Shown one piece after another: positions 12,600 through 34,288 of a DNA stretch of 64,000 nucleotides. Below the pieces are notes generated by a model that worked only from the letters and a program-made list of their open reading frames with translations, was not told where the DNA came from and did not search any database. The stretch is from Erysipelothrix urinaevulpis (GTDB lineage Bacteria; Bacillota_I; Bacilli_A; Erysipelotrichales; Erysipelotrichaceae), in assembly GCF_009828835.1 (NCBI RefSeq), contig NZ_WTTB01000002.1, forward strand, positions 62,001 to 126,000. Direction: 5' to 3'. The stretch's first letter is position 1. Each line of letters opens with the position of its first letter. The translations under genes were made by a program, and so were the position numbers.

Positions 12600-13457
12600 A
12601 TGAAGAAAAGATTGTTAATAATTTTAGTTTTACTCTTATTTTTAAGTGCTTGTTCAAAAAAAGAAAATCATGATGTTGTGACAAGTTTCTTTCCAATTCA
12701 AAGTATGGTAGAGATGATAACGGGTGAACCTGTTAATGTTATATTAGATGGAACAGGCGATGCGCACGATTTTGAACCAACCGCAAAACAAAGAGCAATG
12801 ATTTTAGAATCAAAGTTATTTATTTATAATGGTGGAGGTTTTGAATTTTGGTTTGAAGACGATATGGTCAGCAATGGGAAAGCACTCGCATTGAGTGAAT
12901 CCTTAGAGTTGTTGGAGAGTAATCATGATCACGAGCATGACCACGACCATGGCGATCATGATCCTCATGTATGGCTTGATCCTCATCATGGAAAATCGAT
13001 GTTTAACCAAATCTATGAAGCATTGATCGTCCTTCATCCAGATCAAAAAGAAGTGTATACAAAAAATTATGAAATGCATCGTCAACGTTTGGAAGAGATC
13101 ATCGTAAATTATGAGGCATTATATGATGTTGAACACAAAGAATTTGTTGTTGATCATCATGCTTATGAGTATTTAGCCCATCGATATGGTTTACAGCAAG
13201 AAGCAATTATTGAAGGAATCAGTGATGGAGATGCCAGTTTCAAACAAACGGAACGAGCTATTAAAATGATCAACGAAAAAAATGTCAATGCAATTTTTGT
13301 CGATCCTTCCCATAAAAATGATGTCATTAAACTGGTTGAAAAAGAAACAGGTGCTCAAATTTTAGATTTGTATACCATTGAAAAAGCAGTAGAGGATAAA
13401 ACATATTTTGATCTGTTAGAATACAATTTAGAGCAATTACTTGAAGGGTTGATGTAA
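12600..13457 (+). CDS. znuA: Zinc ABC transporter substrate-binding lipoprotein (ZnuA/AdcA family)
   Basis: 285 residues, cluster A-I metal-binding protein. The lipobox is LSAC, with Cys18 as the likely lipidated residue. Metal ligands of the family are present: a histidine in GDAHDFEP, a histidine-rich loop (HDHEHDHDHGDHD), then DPHVWLDP, VVDHHAYEYL and VDPSHKND. The histidine loop is typical of zinc rather than manganese binding proteins. The start is placed at 12600 after TGGAGG; the frame extends upstream across the promoter, which is not coding. It is first in an operon with ATPase and permease, preceded by a strong promoter and Zur-type box, so induction by zinc shortage is likely. Confidence 0.92.
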   Translation: MKKRLLIILVLLLFLSACSKKENHDVVTSFFPIQSMVEMITGEPVNVILDGTGDAHDFEPTAKQRAMILESKLFIYNGGGFEFWFEDDMVSNGKALALSESLELLESNHDHEHDHDHGDHDPHVWLDPHHGKSMFNQIYEALIVLHPDQKEVYTKNYEMHRQRLEEIIVNYEALYDVEHKEFVVDHHAYEYLAHRYGLQQEAIIEGISDGDASFKQTERAIKMINEKNVNAIFVDPSHKNDVIKLVEKETGAQILDLYTIEKAVEDKTYFDLLEYNLEQLLEGLM

Positions 13458-13458
13458 G

Positions 13459-14091
13459 ATGATTGAAATAAAAAATATGAGCTTTTCTTATCCAGATATG
13501 ACTATTTTTTCTTCGGTTAATTTAAAAATTGAAGCGGGTGACTTTGTCGCGATTGTTGGTGCTAATGGTAGTGGCAAGTCGACCTTATTAAATTTAATGT
13601 TAGGATTTTTAAAAGCACAAGAAGGAACCATTAAACTTCTAGGACAACCAATCGAAGATTTTAATCAATATGCCAAGATTGGTACCGTATTTCAAGGTGG
13701 ACTGACTAAAAGTCAAGGGTTTCCAGCAACAGCTCTAGAAGTGGTCATGTTAAAGGCTAAGTCCATGAACAAACAAGCGCGAAAGGATGCTTTAGCGTCT
13801 TTAGATCATGTCGGTTTGAAAGATATTGCGCATAAAAAAATTTCTAATTTATCAGGCGGGCAATTGCAACGGGTCTATATTGCTCGCGAACTTATGTATG
13901 AACCTGAAGTCTTATTTTTAGATGAACCAACAACAGGTTTAGATAAAACTTCGACTCAAGAACTCATGGAACTTTTAGCACATCTCAATGAAGTGCATAA
14001 AATGACCATCGTTATGGTAACTCATCAATCTTATGATGAATCATTAAAAGTGTTAGAAGTTGTTGATGCAGGAATTATAGAAAAAGGGTGA
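13459..14091 (+). CDS. znuC: Zinc ABC transporter ATP-binding protein
   Basis: A 210-residue ATPase with Walker A GANGSGKST near residues 34-42, signature LSGGQLQRVYIAREL near 131-145, Walker B VLFLDEPTTGLD, and an H-loop in VMVTHQS. It starts one base after the binding-protein stop and is followed directly by the permease gene. It is on the short side but complete for ZnuC/AdcC-type ATPases. Confidence 0.9.
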   Translation: MIEIKNMSFSYPDMTIFSSVNLKIEAGDFVAIVGANGSGKSTLLNLMLGFLKAQEGTIKLLGQPIEDFNQYAKIGTVFQGGLTKSQGFPATALEVVMLKAKSMNKQARKDALASLDHVGLKDIAHKKISNLSGGQLQRVYIARELMYEPEVLFLDEPTTGLDKTSTQELMELLAHLNEVHKMTIVMVTHQSYDESLKVLEVVDAGIIEKG

Positions 14092-14097
14092 GTGTTA

Positions 14098-14886
14098 ATG
14101 TTTCAATATGATTTTGTAAGAACGGCATTTATTGTGGGTGGGTTTTTGGCTCTAATTTTGCCTTTATTAGGTGTCACAGTGGTCTTAAAGCGTTTATCAA
14201 TGATTGGGGACGCTTTATCACATGTTGCTCTGAGTGGTGTTTCACTGGGGTTGATTTTAGGGTTTAATCCTTTGGTAGGCGCCATCGTAATTTCCTTAGT
14301 CGCTGCCTTAAGTATCAACACGATTCAAAAACATCTCGGGTCTTATCAAGAACTCGCGATCGCCATTATTATGTCATTTGGCATTGGGTTGTCAGGGGTT
14401 TTATTAGGATTTGTTAATAATCCTAATAATTTTAATGCTTATTTATTTGGTTCAATTGTAAGCATCAACCAAAGTGATAACCTTGTCTCTATTGCTTTGT
14501 CCATTTTAGTTATTGGTATCGCAATTCGCTATTATCGAGAATTCTTTTTTATAGCGTTTGATGAGAAATCAGCGAAATTATCAGGAATATCAATTAATAA
14601 AATGAATTTCATCTTTCTTTTCTTAACGGCAATTACTGTTGCAATTGGATCTCGTGTAGTGGGTGCACTTGTGGTGTCCTCCTTGATGGTTTTACCCGTT
14701 GCTTTAGCGATGAGAGTGTCAAAAAGCTATAAAACAACCGTTCTTTATTCGATGATATTTTCCCTTATCTTTATGTGGTTAGGTTTAACGTTATCATATT
14801 ATTTTGATTTAAGACCAGGCGGAACCATTGTGTTAACGGCAGTTGCAGGGTATCTGATCTCGTTTTTATTTGTTCGTAACAAATAA
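14098..14886 (+). CDS. znuB: Zinc ABC transporter permease (ABC-3 family)
   Basis: 262 residues with eight or so membrane helices and the ABC-3 family hallmarks: LLGVTVVLKRLSMIGDALSHVALSGVSLG near the N-terminus (first part given) and VGALVVSSLMVLPVALAM in the second half. The ATG at 14098 is preferred because AAAAAGGG lies about nine bases before it; a GTG at 14092 would be too close. Last gene of the zinc operon; no clear hairpin terminator follows within the 55-base gap. Confidence 0.88.
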   Translation: MFQYDFVRTAFIVGGFLALILPLLGVTVVLKRLSMIGDALSHVALSGVSLGLILGFNPLVGAIVISLVAALSINTIQKHLGSYQELAIAIIMSFGIGLSGVLLGFVNNPNNFNAYLFGSIVSINQSDNLVSIALSILVIGIAIRYYREFFFIAFDEKSAKLSGISINKMNFIFLFLTAITVAIGSRVVGALVVSSLMVLPVALAMRVSKSYKTTVLYSMIFSLIFMWLGLTLSYYFDLRPGGTIVLTAVAGYLISFLFVRNK

Positions 14887-14941: not shown

Positions 14942-16291
14942 ATGAAAAAAACTGGTTTCAAAATAACAGTGATCGCAATTCTCTTAGGGTTTTTACTGAT
15001 GATTACCCCTTACATCCGTCCAAAGTCCTTAACCTTTGAACAAAAAGAAGTCATTGATAAAAAACTAAGTGATTTAGAGTATAAAGGTGAGCAGGTTTAT
15101 TTAGTGAGTGATCCCAATGAAGCCTTTCAGGTTCGTTTAGCGATGATACAAAATGCGAAAGAACGAATTGTTCTATCAAGCTATATTATTCATGAAGGGG
15201 ACACAACAACCGCAATTTACTCTGAATTAATTAAAGCAGCCGATCGTGGCGTCAAGGTGACACTTTTAACGGACTATAAATTAGGAGGAACACGAAACAA
15301 GACAGGTAAAGCACTTGCAAGTCATCCTAACATCAATAGTTACACCTACAACCCACTTTCTTTATTTAAGATAAGGTCTTGGCAATCAGTTCATCATGAG
15401 AAATACCTTGTGGTTGATGGGGACTACGCTTTAGTGGGGGGACGAAATATTGGTGATAAATACTTTACAAAGACAAAGGACCTTAAAACTGTTTCGGATT
15501 TGGATGTCTTAGTGATCTCTGAACATGGTTTTGCAAACGCACTTCATGACTATGCGAATAACTTCATCGGAAATTCTGAAATTAAACAGATCAATACGAA
15601 GCAAAAGCGCGCCTATGAAAAACAGAAAAATATTTGGCGCAAACAATTAAATTCAAGCTACAGTTTAGATAATTATATTTTAAAGGCAGGCACTGCGGAC
15701 TTAACATTCCTTACAAATCCAATGATCCCCACGGAAACCCAAGGGTATATTGGCTATGCACTGACTCAGCTCGCAGCGAATACAAATGATAAAGTAGTTG
15801 TACAAACACCCTATGCAACAGCGCATAAAGATAGTCTAAGGATCCTTAAAGATTTAACAGATCAAGGTGTCAGTGTTCAATTTTTAACGAATTCAATCGC
15901 TTCGTCTGCTAATTATCCTGCTTTTTCAAATTATTATAAAAACAAAGAAAAGTTCTTAAAGACTAAGATTGATATTTATGAATACCAAAGCGATGGTGGG
16001 CATTCAATCCACACCAAAGCCTATCAATTCGATGATATTTTAGTTATTGGTTCATTTAATTTAGATGATCGTAGTTTTTTTGTTAACACTGAAATGGTGC
16101 TGATTGTTCGATCAGACGCACTCAATAAACAATATAATGATGTCATCCATGAGCAACTCGAACAATCCTTTGCTCTAAGTGGTGATAAAAGTATTGCGGG
16201 TAAGGACCAGGAAGTCCATGTATCGTGGTTCAAGCGATTTATGATGACGGTGAGTTCGGTCTTTTCTAGAATTTTCTCATTTTTAATTTAA
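14942..16291 (+). CDS. Phospholipase D family protein (cardiolipin synthase-like)
   Basis: 449 residues, one N-terminal membrane helix (about 5-23), then two PLD half-sites: HHEKYLVVDGDYALVGGRN near 151-169 and IHTKAYQFDDILVIGSFN near 354-371, both with the H-x-K-x4-D pattern and trailing G-x-N. Proteins of this layout make cardiolipin or related phospholipids at the membrane, or act as phospholipases. There is only one membrane helix, while the usual Cls of Bacillus has two, so the exact reaction is open. It has its own gap of 55 bases upstream with an AT-rich inverted repeat but no certain promoter. Confidence 0.8.
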   Translation: MKKTGFKITVIAILLGFLLMITPYIRPKSLTFEQKEVIDKKLSDLEYKGEQVYLVSDPNEAFQVRLAMIQNAKERIVLSSYIIHEGDTTTAIYSELIKAADRGVKVTLLTDYKLGGTRNKTGKALASHPNINSYTYNPLSLFKIRSWQSVHHEKYLVVDGDYALVGGRNIGDKYFTKTKDLKTVSDLDVLVISEHGFANALHDYANNFIGNSEIKQINTKQKRAYEKQKNIWRKQLNSSYSLDNYILKAGTADLTFLTNPMIPTETQGYIGYALTQLAANTNDKVVVQTPYATAHKDSLRILKDLTDQGVSVQFLTNSIASSANYPAFSNYYKNKEKFLKTKIDIYEYQSDGGHSIHTKAYQFDDILVIGSFNLDDRSFFVNTEMVLIVRSDALNKQYNDVIHEQLEQSFALSGDKSIAGKDQEVHVSWFKRFMMTVSSVFSRIFSFLI

Positions 16292-16307
16292 AATTAAAAC
16301 ACTTTTC

Positions 16308-16336
16308 TTGACAACAGCGAGAAGGTTGATTATTAT
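16308..16336 (+). promoter_or_regulatory. Promoter of the leader peptide / cystine symporter transcript
   Basis: TTGACA (16308-16313), 17-base spacer, TATTAT (16331-16336). Start of transcription near 16343, about 37 bases before the leader-peptide ATG. Confidence 0.85.
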
Positions 16337-16379
16337 GAACGATGTAACATATATGTTAAATTTATTTGGAGGACCCATT

Positions 16380-16442
16380 ATGAAAAAATCATGTTGTTGT
16401 AAAATCATAAACAATAAATATAACCTTACAGGTGATTTTTAG
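16380..16442 (+). CDS. 20-residue leader peptide with three consecutive cysteine codons
   Basis: A 20-codon open frame begins MKKSCCCK and ends at TAG. It has an ideal ribosome binding site, GGAGG at 16368-16372, seven bases before the ATG. The three TGT codons are at 16392-16400. It lies between a strong promoter and an intrinsic terminator (16478-16500), and the next gene is a cystine-type symporter. This is the layout of amino-acid attenuators in which a ribosome stalled at scarce-aminoacyl-tRNA codons prevents terminator formation. Cysteine would be the sensed amino acid. The peptide itself probably has no other role. Confidence 0.75.
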   Translation: MKKSCCCKIINNKYNLTGDF

Positions 16443-16452
16443 CCTGCAACTT

Positions 16453-16500
16453 TCGAATGTCAAAATTTAAACAATTGAGTGTCGAGAGACACTTTTTTTT
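16453..16500 (+). promoter_or_regulatory. Attenuator: terminator with candidate competing antiterminator
   Basis: Terminator: AGTGTC (16478-16483), loop GAGA, GACACT (16488-16493), then seven T. Competing pairing: TCGA-ATG-TCAA (16453-16463) with TTGA-GTG-TCGA (16475-16485), eight pairs around a 3 by 3 internal loop. This would take up the 5' arm of the terminator. A ribosome at the leader stop codon would cover the left arm and let the terminator form; a ribosome stalled at the cysteine codons would leave it free. The terminator is firm; the antiterminator is weaker. Confidence 0.7.
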
Positions 16501-16522
16501 ATGCTCAAAATAGGAGGAAAGC

Positions 16523-17800
16523 ATGAATTATTTACCCATTATCGCTTTATTATCGACTGTCTTAGTGTTTTATGGTTTGTATGGATTAAAAAAGAAATAT
16601 CACTTGTCATTTGCGAAACGCACCTTTATCGCAATGGCGTTTGGATTACTAATTGGTATAATTTTTAAAGGGAATGTTGAGTATGTCAGTGTATTTGGAC
16701 GGATTTATTCCCGATTAATTTCATCCGTTGTTGTTCCGTTATTGTTTTTCAGTATTATTGCAAGCATTGCATCAGTTAATAACCTCAATCGCCTCAAGTC
16801 TTTAGGTGTACGATCAGTTTTTTGGTTGCTTCTCAATGCCTTGTTAGCAGGAATTCTTACTGTTCTTGTCACCACACAAATAAAGTTTGGTTCAAGTTTT
16901 AACTTAGACTTACCCAGTGATTATGTGGCTCGTGAGGTTCCCACATTTATCGATACAATCATAAGTTTCTTTCCAAGTAATATCGTCTTGCATGCCGCAG
17001 AGAATCAAATCATCCCAATGATACTCTTTTCGGTGCTCATGGGTATTGCGTTGGTAAAGCTCAATACAGCGAATCAAGATAAAGCGATGCCTGTTTTACA
17101 GTTTTTTGAGTCAATGAACCATTTAATCAATGAGTTCGTCAAAATTATTATTAAATTGACCCCCTATGCAGTGGTTGCTTACATTGCATCAGTGCCAAGC
17201 CGATTTTCAGGAAATGAAATCAGTTCTTTATTTTTAGTCATCCTGGTTGGTTATGGTCTTAGCTTCTTTCAAGCATTTATCATACATGGTGTCTTAGTGA
17301 AATTGTTTGCTAAAATGAGTCCAGTGAAATTTTTTAAGGGGATTTATCCTGCACAACTTGTTGCTTTCACATCTCAAAGTAGTGTTGGTACAGTACCGGT
17401 TGTGATTGACCAGTTAAGCCAAGACCTTGAGGTTGATGGTGATATTGCCTCATTTGTTGCTGGTCTTGGAGCAAATGTTGGCATGCCAGCATGTACAGCA
17501 ATTTGGCCCATTATGTTAGCGGTGTTTACAGTGTATTCGTTCAATATCCCATTTACAAGTTTACAATTTGCTATGTTAATTGTTTATGCTGTCATCGTCT
17601 CGTTTGGTACGGCCGGTGTACCAGGAACTGCTACAATTGCAGCCACTGCCGTTTTAACAGCAGCTGGATTACCATTAGAAATAATTTTCATTTTTGCTCC
17701 GATTTCAAGTTTGGTCGATATGGCCCGTACAATGGCTAATGTCACCGGATCAGCAACTGCAGCAGTGATTGTTAATTATAAAGAAACTAAATTTGATTAA
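16523..17800 (+). CDS. Sodium:dicarboxylate/amino acid symporter family, probable cystine symporter (TcyP-like)
   Basis: 425 residues, about eight to ten membrane segments, DAACS (SLC1-like) family. It shows the serine-rich hairpin region (AFTSQSSVGTVPVV near 290-303) and the GLGANVGMPACTAIW stretch that follows, matching family positions for substrate and sodium binding. Within the family it resembles TcyP-type cystine importers more than glutamate carriers, judging from the N-terminal half and the upstream cysteine-codon leader. AGGAGG precedes the start. It stands alone after the attenuator and before the methionine T-box, in a sulfur amino acid uptake region. Confidence 0.8.
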   Translation: MNYLPIIALLSTVLVFYGLYGLKKKYHLSFAKRTFIAMAFGLLIGIIFKGNVEYVSVFGRIYSRLISSVVVPLLFFSIIASIASVNNLNRLKSLGVRSVFWLLLNALLAGILTVLVTTQIKFGSSFNLDLPSDYVAREVPTFIDTIISFFPSNIVLHAAENQIIPMILFSVLMGIALVKLNTANQDKAMPVLQFFESMNHLINEFVKIIIKLTPYAVVAYIASVPSRFSGNEISSLFLVILVGYGLSFFQAFIIHGVLVKLFAKMSPVKFFKGIYPAQLVAFTSQSSVGTVPVVIDQLSQDLEVDGDIASFVAGLGANVGMPACTAIWPIMLAVFTVYSFNIPFTSLQFAMLIVYAVIVSFGTAGVPGTATIAATAVLTAAGLPLEIIFIFAPISSLVDMARTMANVTGSATAAVIVNYKETKFD

Positions 17801-17836: not shown

Positions 17837-17842
17837 GTAAAA

Positions 17843-18094
17843 AAGCGATGAAAAGAAAAGTAAATCTATGAAAATTTTACAGAGAGTTCTGATTGGGTGA
17901 GACAGAATGAATGGAAGTAGATTGAAAATGGTCTTGGAGCTGTATAAGTGAGACAAGTGTTTAGCTTATATCGGGTACACCCGTTACAGTGTTAGAGTAT
18001 GATTGTACTCGATAAGGTTATTTGTCGTGAGGCAGATAATAAATTAAGGTGGTAACATGAGCACGCTCATCCTTAGGGATAGCGTGCTTTTTAT
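17843..18094 (+). promoter_or_regulatory. T-box leader, methionine specifier (fills the 321-base gap)
   Basis: Stem I begins at AGAGAG (17881). The specifier ATG (17928-17930) stands six bases before TTGGAGC, exactly where ACC stands in the thrS T-box of this window. The T-box motif AAGGTGGTAACATG is at 18046-18059, with TGGT to pair with a tRNA ending in ACCA. The terminator is AGCACGCT / AGCGTGCT (18060-18067 with 18081-18088), followed by five T. Uncharged tRNA-Met would turn on the downstream lipoprotein gene. Confidence 0.9.
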
Positions 18095-18121: not shown

Positions 18122-18913
18122 ATGAAAAAAATACTATCGGTTTTCTTGGTTTTATTGATTGTAAGTGGATGTGGTGCAAAAAAAGGTGATGACGATAAAA
18201 TTATTAAGGTCACCGCAACGGCATTACCCCATGCAGAAATTTTGAAACAGGTTGTTGAGCCTTTAAAAAATGAAGGTTACACACTCGAAATTAATGTGGT
18301 GGATGATTACAAAATTCCCAATACATTATTAGATGATGGAACAATTGATGCGAACTACTTCCAACATATTCCATACTTAAGTGATTTCAACAAACAGGCA
18401 AACAGTGATTTACAATGGGCTTTAAAAGTTCATTATGAACCCATCGCAATTTATGCAGGTAAAAAAGATACTTTGGATGCTGTGAAAGAAGGGGATACCG
18501 TCTTGGTTCCAGATGATCCAACAAACTTACCACGTGCACTAAGCTTACTTGAAGAACTGGGATGGATTGAATTAACAGGCGAAAAATTACGCTTAAAAGA
18601 CATTGCTGTCAATCACTATAATTTAGATATTAAAGAAATTCAAGCAGACAATATTACACCTCTAATCGATGATGCAGACTATGCAATCATTAATGGAAAC
18701 TATGCTTTAGCTGCAGATATTACTCAAAGAGGGTTGCAAGCAGAAAGTATTTCGCAAGAGAAAGTTGACGAAATCGTGAATGTGATTGCGGTGCGGAAAG
18801 ATGATTTAGAATCCGATAAGACCAAGGCGTTAATCAAAGCGTTTAGCGATCCGAAAGTCAAAACATTTATTGAAGAAAAGTATGCACCATCTGTCATTAG
18901 TACTCTAGATTAG
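18122..18913 (+). CDS. metQ: Methionine-binding lipoprotein (NlpA/MetQ family)
   Basis: 263 residues with a lipobox VSGC (Cys about residue 17) and an NlpA-type binding domain: IIKVTATALPHAEIL, NTLLDDGTIDANYFQHIPYL, YAGKKDTLDAVKEGDTVLVPDDPTN and AIINGNYALAADI. It binds methionine for a MetNIQ importer. The methionine T-box directly upstream supports the substrate. The ATPase (MetN) and permease (MetI) are not next to it and must be elsewhere if the system works. GGAGG lies before the start. The next reading frame is a 40-residue peptide 45 bases on. Confidence 0.92.
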   Translation: MKKILSVFLVLLIVSGCGAKKGDDDKIIKVTATALPHAEILKQVVEPLKNEGYTLEINVVDDYKIPNTLLDDGTIDANYFQHIPYLSDFNKQANSDLQWALKVHYEPIAIYAGKKDTLDAVKEGDTVLVPDDPTNLPRALSLLEELGWIELTGEKLRLKDIAVNHYNLDIKEIQADNITPLIDDADYAIINGNYALAADITQRGLQAESISQEKVDEIVNVIAVRKDDLESDKTKALIKAFSDPKVKTFIEEKYAPSVISTLD

Positions 18914-34070: not shown

Positions 34071-34288
34071 GAAGAAGCGTTGAAAAGGATATGAAATCTA
34101 AAGTTTGAAAAGAGAGGGTAACGGCTGGTGAAAGTTACTTGTAAAACTTTTTATTTTACCACCTTGGAGCTTGGTCTAATCAACCACGTATGCTGGCGAT
34201 AACAGCAATGAAGCGCATGATTTTTAATCATGAACTAAGGTGGTACCGCGTATAAACGTCCTTATTGTGATGTTTATGCGCTTTTTTT
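34071..34288 (+). promoter_or_regulatory. T-box leader, threonine specifier
   Basis: Stem I starts at AGAGAGGG (near 34111). The specifier ACC is at 34158-34160, six bases before TTGGAGC. The T-box motif AAGGTGGTACCGCG is at 34237-34250. The terminator stem GCGTATAAAC / GTTTATGCGC follows, with T7 at 34282-34288. The TGGT bulge predicts a tRNA-Thr with discriminator A. It should induce thrS when tRNA-Thr is uncharged. It accounts for the whole 274-base gap. Confidence 0.93.

Follow-up and report, generated by a model that had tools for sequence, protein, structure and literature searches.

Leader-peptide attenuation is a textbook mechanism of Proteobacteria, and T-boxes are better known in Firmicutes. 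For cysteine, uORFC-8-2 has been described, which lies ahead of cysS in Rhodobacterales, has two tandem Cys codons and an intrinsic terminator, and is proposed to act by ribosome-mediated attenuation through charged tRNA-Cys (PMC8632094). Leader peptides with Cys codons are also described for the cys operons of Mycobacterium and Propionibacterium and for cbs of Bifidobacterium longum; no conserved terminator hairpin was found for them, and Rho is suggested (PMC1262725). Cys attenuation in mycobacteria is further cited (Canestrari 2020, with leaderless in its title, cited in PMC13236596), and Cys codons in Mycobacterium tuberculosis are mentioned (PMC9094748). For other amino acids, three papers report His leader-peptide attenuators in the his operons of six Erysipelotrichales, predicted by comparison (PMC9413887), a leucine-rich attenuator peptide at the BCAA operon of Staphylococcus aureus (PMC5794164), and His leaders in Bacilli, which the authors in 2010 presented as, so far as they knew, without precedent beyond Proteobacteria and Actinobacteria (PMC2965389).

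The locus described here lies in a 64,000-nt stretch of the Erysipelothrix urinaevulpis genome (the window). Judged from its sequence, it is very probably a transcription attenuator of the ribosome-mediated type, with charged tRNA-Cys as the signal it reads and a cystine importer as its target. The analysis gives the parts of such a device, the recurrence of the Cys run and the terminator, their association with one symporter family, and a switch in the predicted folds that depends on ribosome position.

With uORFC-8-2 the locus shares a Cys-codon leader, an intrinsic terminator and a proposed ribosome-mediated attenuation. However, uORFC-8-2 is confined to Rhodobacterales, stands before cysS and has its Cys codons inside the first stem, whereas the window belongs to Bacillota, its gene encodes a cystine-type symporter (PF00375), its Cys codons lie upstream of the antiterminator, and the 12 Erysipelothrix cysS regions scanned carry no leader. 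The actinobacterial leaders resemble it in having a short ORF with a Cys run ahead of sulfur genes, but they precede biosynthesis genes, and no conserved terminator hairpin was found for them, unlike the symporter gene and the terminator seen here. The His attenuators come from the same order and combine a codon run, a terminator and an antiterminator, yet they read histidine at a biosynthetic operon instead of cysteine at an importer; the S. aureus peptide is likewise a case of leader-peptide attenuation in a Firmicute, but for leucine and a BCAA operon. Our literature search, for which most subscription journals fell outside coverage, gave no Cys leader in Bacillota among the matches listed. 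Attenuation by Cys leaders is thus known, and a Cys leader on a cystine-type symporter of Bacillota is new within the literature searched. If the reading is right, it would show how Erysipelotrichia and Clostridia can sense cysteine at a symporter gene, and it would provide a regulatory argument for cystine as the substrate of this symporter subfamily.

The leader region and its symporter gene

A first-pass annotation of the window had reported a promoter, a ribosome-binding site (RBS), a 20-codon frame with three TGT codons, a terminator and a symporter gene, and the sequence and pattern scans place all of them where it had put them. The features are as follows:

16308–16336, + strand: promoter TTGACA-17-TATTAT, 11 of 12 consensus matches (pattern scan)
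16343–16360, + strand: AT-rich element with the palindrome AACATATATGTT, directly past the -10; possible operator (7-mer enrichment)
16368–16372, + strand: leader RBS GGAGG, 7 nt upstream of the ATG at 16380 (sequence)
16380–16442, + strand: leader ORF of 20 codons, MKKSCCCKIINNKYNLTGDF; Cys run kept in orthologues, peptides otherwise different
16429–16446, + strand: hairpin CAGGU/GCCUG spanning the leader stop codon (minimum-energy fold of the stalled-ribosome RNA)
16450–16488, + strand: predicted antiterminator, 16450–16456 with 16482–16488 and 16460–16463 with 16475–16478 (folding; complementarity alone weak)
16477–16500, + strand: intrinsic terminator with a 7-bp stem, a GAGA loop and 8 T (pattern scan)
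16523–17800, + strand: TcyP-like symporter gene (PF00375), the presumed regulated gene (Pfam E 7.6e-95; motifs common with E. coli TcyP)

The promoter is the best of six promoter-like sites between 16200 and 16600 (shuffle mean 1.9), and TTGACA-17 promoters are also found upstream of the leaders at loci L055–L057, L060, L063 and L064. Within the leader ORF the three TGT codons occupy 16392–16400, and the TAG stop codon is at 16440–16442. The terminator reads GAGTGTC-GAGA-GACACTT, with the stem at 16477–16494 and eight T at 16493–16500; the only two terminator-like sites found by the pattern scan are the two strands of this one hairpin (shuffle mean 0.2). As befits an attenuator, a short ORF with an RBS lies between promoter and gene in the window and in orthologues, and in the window an intrinsic terminator separates leader and gene. 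A DNA search of the whole source genome (1.9 Mb, 92.8% complete) with 16343–16522 matched only the query region itself.

The symporter frame is preceded by AGGAGG and encodes a product of 425 aa, for which no NCBIfam model scored above its cut-off. When one E. coli reference protein was taken per type, identity was 29% to TcyP, 26% to GltP, 22% to DctA and 19% to SstT. The motifs AFTS(Q/R)SS and GA..G...C..(I/L)(W/Y)P.MLAV are common to the symporter and TcyP and are absent from GltP, DctA and SstT; GltP and DctA have NLDG at this place. These shared motifs presumably define the TcyP type. The TcyP-like assignment made in the first pass is therefore borne out by the motifs and seems a fair label, with cystine as the probable substrate. 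A zinc/manganese-type ABC importer operon (binding protein, ATPase and permease) is situated just upstream, at 12600–14886.

The proposed attenuator would work as follows. RNA polymerase would start near 16343, and a ribosome would load on the leader ORF. With ample cysteine the ribosome would pass the three TGT codons and reach the stop codon at 16440, where it would melt the stop-codon hairpin and cover the arm at 16450; with this arm covered the terminator at 16477 would form, and transcription would end near 16500. Under a shortage of cysteinyl-tRNA the ribosome would instead stall at 16392–16400 and leave the arm free to pair with the terminator, at its loop and 5' half, so that polymerase could enter the symporter gene. 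Here we infer translation of the leader, cysteine as the signal and efficient termination.

Recurrence of the Cys leader

A symporter orthologue was found in 6 of 13 genomes of the genus (57–100% identity), and five of the six have a Cys leader with two or three adjacent Cys codons, an RBS and an intrinsic terminator. The leader peptides are MKKSCCCKIINNKYNLTGDF in the window, MNYFVKCCKLESQSVQFLYF in genome G004, MEILCCCTFSNYNGNTKV in G002, MGIQCCCTFSNDNWNTKV in G003 and MNLVICCKTQPTTNTHMCSFTHVK in G007. They agree in how they start, in length class and in having the Cys run, and in little else except for the close pair G002/G003, and the five terminators represent four different sequences. 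The orthologue of G009 (57% identity) has no leader upstream. The first-pass annotation had suggested attenuation, and had proposed to look in relatives for a Cys run, an RBS and both hairpins kept while the peptide drifts. The Cys run, RBS and terminator are indeed kept on drifting peptides in five of the six genus orthologues and in many distant genomes, which supports the attenuation interpretation; of the two hairpins, it is the terminator for which conservation is seen.

Two other explanations of these parts were ruled out. The terminator might have been the end of the upstream PLD-like gene, but in G002, G003, G004 and G007 the neighbor on that side is transcribed divergently, and there the terminator is therefore not its 3' end. 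The leader might also have been common to cys genes throughout the genus; yet Cys-Cys leaders were found upstream of none of 12 cysS and none of 14 cysK-like (PF00291) genes, a set that leaves out the partial cysS L147 and the weak PF00291 matches L163 and L164.

Relatives were collected from GTDB species genomes, using an aligned set of 11 orthologues as the query. The upstream regions of the best 80 of 102 relatives, together with those of the window and of L028, gave 82 regions, 81 of which were long enough. A leader was counted if it had an ATG start, at least four contiguous RBS letters, 8–50 codons, two adjacent Cys codons and an end at least 20 nt before the gene. This rule was fixed after a looser first look, and weaker frames remain uncounted, for example those with a TTG start in L065 and a GTG start in L108. 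By this rule 29 of the 81 regions have a Cys-Cys leader, namely the window, L028 and 27 of the 79 relatives scanned from the best 80 of 102. The count includes near copies and by eye corresponds to about 21 groups. Dinucleotide shuffles gave 0.8 (sd 0.87, maximum 3 in 50 rounds) and the reverse strand gave none. A codon run for the relevant amino acid is thus kept amid drift: it recurs at the corresponding position in related genomes, and 29 of 81 regions have it where shuffling would give 0.8. The Cys run therefore exceeds chance.

Among the bacteria that carry such leaders are Erysipelotrichaceae, Butyrivibrio and further Lachnospiraceae, Sedimentibacter saalensis, Lachnoclostridium phytofermentans and Thomasclavelia. 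In 52 of the 81 regions, L059 and L112 among them, the rule gives no Cys-Cys leader, and it gives none at the Bifidobacterium and Olsenella loci among the best 80 of 102 relatives. By eye, L082, L090 and some others contain short frames in which Cys codons occur singly. The Cys leader was perhaps gained more than once. The first pass had regarded the arrangement as an unusual one; it is not a singular case, but recurs on this symporter family.

Among 26 further PF00375 loci from the bacterial family, a Cys leader occurs only at L028 (genome G021, MRKQHFVQVSCCCSCYRI, terminator present). This set leaves out L022, with 71 nt upstream, and about 100 further matches, and L020 corresponds to the contig of L101. 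The symporter of L028 clusters with E. coli TcyP (99/84, long branches). Because the other PF00375 loci and the cysS and cysK-like genes lack the leader, save for the TcyP-grouping L028, the leader goes with TcyP-type symporters among the loci examined.

A terminator is present in 21 of 30 leaders. This number includes L066 (CCGAG/CTCGG), which was added by hand as the scan had missed it, and excludes the automatic matches in L088 and L089, which were discarded for their poor T-run and a stem that begins at the stop codon.

Predicted antiterminator geometry and folds

In all 16 terminator-bearing leaders from outside Erysipelothrix, the best contiguous partner of the terminator 5' arm starts 10–22 nt past the first base of the last Cys codon of a Cys-Cys run. 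The footprint of a ribosome extends about 12–15 nt past the A site, and by sequence this partner would begin where a ribosome stalled in the Cys run has its front edge. With arms constrained to start at least 13 nt after the first Cys codon, contiguous helices were found such as CCCGGGCAT/ATGTCCGGG in L098, CCGGGCAT/ATGCCCGG in L085, CCCGGTTCT/AGAACCGGG in L119, CGGGAATT/AATTCCCG in L068, TTCGGACA/TGTCCGAG in L066 and TGTTGAA/TTCAACA in L060. The helix sequences differ between loci, so the pairing is kept while the letters change. Pooled over 15 groups (one leader per close group, including the window and three other Erysipelothrix leaders), the helix score was 273 against 208 (sd 9.3), and none of 300 shuffles reached it.

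The Butyrivibrio-type leaders L084, L085, L091, L098 and L103 have a kept peptide stretch, CC.MT..RASYMAG.L. The codons conserved after CC in Butyrivibrio (MCCRMTxxRASYMAGML) may be kept because they encode the antiterminator arm. A second hairpin within the ORF, TGGCATG/CATGCCA, was seen by eye in L085, L091 and L103 and is perhaps a protector hairpin.

The Cys residues of the peptide could instead sense metal or redox state, with the terminator answering to that and not to cysteinyl-tRNA. Copper sensing by a peptide is exemplified by the CruR uORF of Bordetella, and the CCC motif as well as the ABC operon upstream of the symporter would suit such a sensor. We nevertheless regard it as very unlikely: the number of Cys residues varies (CC, CCC, CCCC, CCSCCCCC), their position ranges between codon 2 and the last sense codon, little else of the peptide is kept outside close groups, and the antiterminator arm lies where a ribosome held up in the Cys run would have its edge. 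The constant downstream symporter is no evidence against metal or redox sensing, since the loci were found through the symporter.

For tRNA-Cys sensing in the window itself, complementarity gave a different result. In the contiguous-helix test its best helix was CAAT/ATTG, which all 300 shuffles equaled; this null result is explained by the antiterminator of the window using the terminator loop. With the loop allowed the helix becomes CTTTCGA/TCGAGAG, yet 66 of 300 shuffles were equal. The left arm of the predicted antiterminator starts 10 nt past the first base of the stop codon. A best arm 10–11 nt past this base, behind an ORF-end hairpin, is found only in the window, G002 and G003, and in G004 and G007 the best arm lies elsewhere. 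A predicted hairpin at or near the ORF end also occurs in L055, L056, L057 and L004. Pooled over the five Erysipelothrix leaders, antiterminator complementarity was 68 against 67.8, with 150 of 300 shuffles as good. As this is not above chance, the model for the window rests on the recurrent Cys run and terminator, on folding and on the better-defined relatives.

Folding was compared between two states, one in which a ribosome sits at the first Cys codon and leaves the RNA exposed from 13 nt onward, and one in which it has reached the stop codon. For the first state, the minimum-energy structure of the window contains the antiterminator (z -2.3; 4 of 200 shuffles equal), and the stability of the whole 171-nt leader is unremarkable (z -1.2; 26 of 200 shuffles). 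On average the terminator pairs have a probability of 0.34 in the stalled state and 0.90 with the ribosome at the stop codon, with 6 of 200 spacer shuffles as good. The competing pairing that the first pass had drawn between 16453–16463 and 16475–16485 is therefore present in a slightly larger form and supported by folding in the window, but over the five Erysipelothrix leaders its complementarity does not differ from shuffles.

Similar changes in terminator probability were predicted for G007 (L004), from 0.27 stalled to 0.91 at the stop codon, and for L066, from 0.00 to 0.99. In the other 18 leaders with a terminator, the terminator wins at equilibrium in both states (at least 0.76 when stalled). 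Capture of the terminator 5' arm by upstream sequence is greater in the stalled state in 15 of 18 leaders, the exceptions being L056, L057 and L070. Since the terminator is favored in both states in L055, L056 and L057, and L056, L057 and L070 show no extra arm capture, a switch in these leaders would be kinetic.

Pooled over the 21 leaders, terminator probability changed by 3.08 against 0.26 (sd 0.54) and arm capture by 6.65 against 2.63 (sd 1.11), each reached by none of 200 shuffles; with one leader per close group (n = 15) it was again none of 200 on both measures. The five Erysipelothrix leaders taken by themselves gave 1 of 200 shuffles for terminator probability and 44 of 200, not significant, for arm capture, and eleven Clostridia leaders gave 9 of 200 and 6 of 200, respectively. 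These measures are a revision, in which terminator probability received its own null. The earlier one, sequestration of the terminator 5' arm in the stalled state minus that at the stop codon, was matched by 7 of 300 shuffles for 10 pooled leaders and by 2 of 300 for 7 non-redundant ones. For the window it was 0.00 (192 of 300 shuffles as good), and in the same run the terminator probability of the window was 0.17 stalled and 0.91 at the stop codon. An antiterminator that depends on ribosome position is hence predicted for the wider set, and for the window by folding, not by complementarity.

Leaders without a terminator and other possible regulators

No usable terminator was found in 9 of the 30 leaders (L069, L071, L072, L080, L081, L088, L089, L093 and L097). 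Eight of these were folded, L089 being omitted as a near copy of L088, and the following values were obtained with no null. The accessibility of the symporter RBS rose from 0.34 without a ribosome to 0.91 with a ribosome stalled on the last Cys codon in L080, and from 0.13 to 0.71 in L069; the change in L071 was modest (0.48 to 0.74), and the five others showed little or none. With the ribosome at the stop codon accessibility was also high in L069 (0.60) and L080 (0.91), so the contrast is with the state without a ribosome. In the leaders encoding CCSCC, L069 and L081, the TCC Ser codon creates CTCCT, which is complementary to the symporter RBS AGGAG, and these may be translational attenuators. 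Folding showed the change in L069 and none in L081.

Taken across loci, we lean toward a family of Cys leaders, spread over Erysipelotrichia and Clostridia, that acts on TcyP-like cystine symporters by outputs that can replace one another, the sensor being kept and the output rebuilt. The outputs would be termination in which the arm directly follows the stalled ribosome (as in Butyrivibrio and others), termination with an arm past the stop codon (Erysipelothrix), and masking of the symporter RBS in some leaders that lack a terminator (L080, L069). If this is true, such related switches, with constant sensing codons and a changing RNA output, would make the evolution of attenuators directly testable.

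The AT-rich element past the -10 has counterparts at other loci. The 7-mer AAACATA or its complement occurs in 13 of 25 promoter-bearing symporter upstream regions, where the top 7-mer of shuffles averaged 4.7 with a maximum of 8; when near copies were dropped it occurred in 8 of 20 regions (shuffle maximum 7). The window copy reads AACATAT. From these sequences, a second regulator, perhaps a repressor common to many of these promoters, may act at the symporter promoter. Such a repressor acting past the -10 could even be the whole of the regulation if the short ORF served translation or mRNA stability and the hairpin were a fixed terminator that leaks. The enrichment of the operator-like 7-mer, the similar-looking element seen by eye in leaderless loci such as L059 and L112, and the weak antiterminator of Erysipelothrix are all compatible with this constitutive arrangement, but it leaves the Cys run in 29 of 81 regions unexplained, as well as the arm geometry and fold switch of the wider set, and we consider it unlikely. 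No protein of the 92.8% complete genome matched the CymR family (Rrf2, PF02082) above the cut-off of 30 bits, the best of three matches scoring 28.4 bits.

Besides the tRNA-Cys attenuator favored here, cysteine control could be exerted by a T-box or a known riboswitch within the leader. A T-box (RF00230; 17839–18077, 115.7 bits) does lie 38 bp past the symporter gene, and such elements are therefore in use here. Against this, none of 4227 Rfam 15 families, RF00230 included, matched 16200–16520 even at E 1, and the leader regions of 20 relative loci gave no Rfam 15 match at gathering scores, which leaves this explanation a negligible probability. The genome has 12 T-box matches, 9 of them over the cut-off, and by position none adjoins cysS or cysK. 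tRNA-Cys has a U discriminator, so the bulge of a T-box reading it would need UGGA; this was found in none of the nine T-boxes whose bulge was read automatically.

The T-box at 17839–18077 stands before a gene for a MetQ/NlpA lipoprotein (18122–18913) and has UGGU in its antiterminator bulge; its ligand is perhaps methionine. The window contains a second T-box at 34071–34266 (96.7 bits), and the next gene is by eye that of a threonyl-tRNA synthetase.
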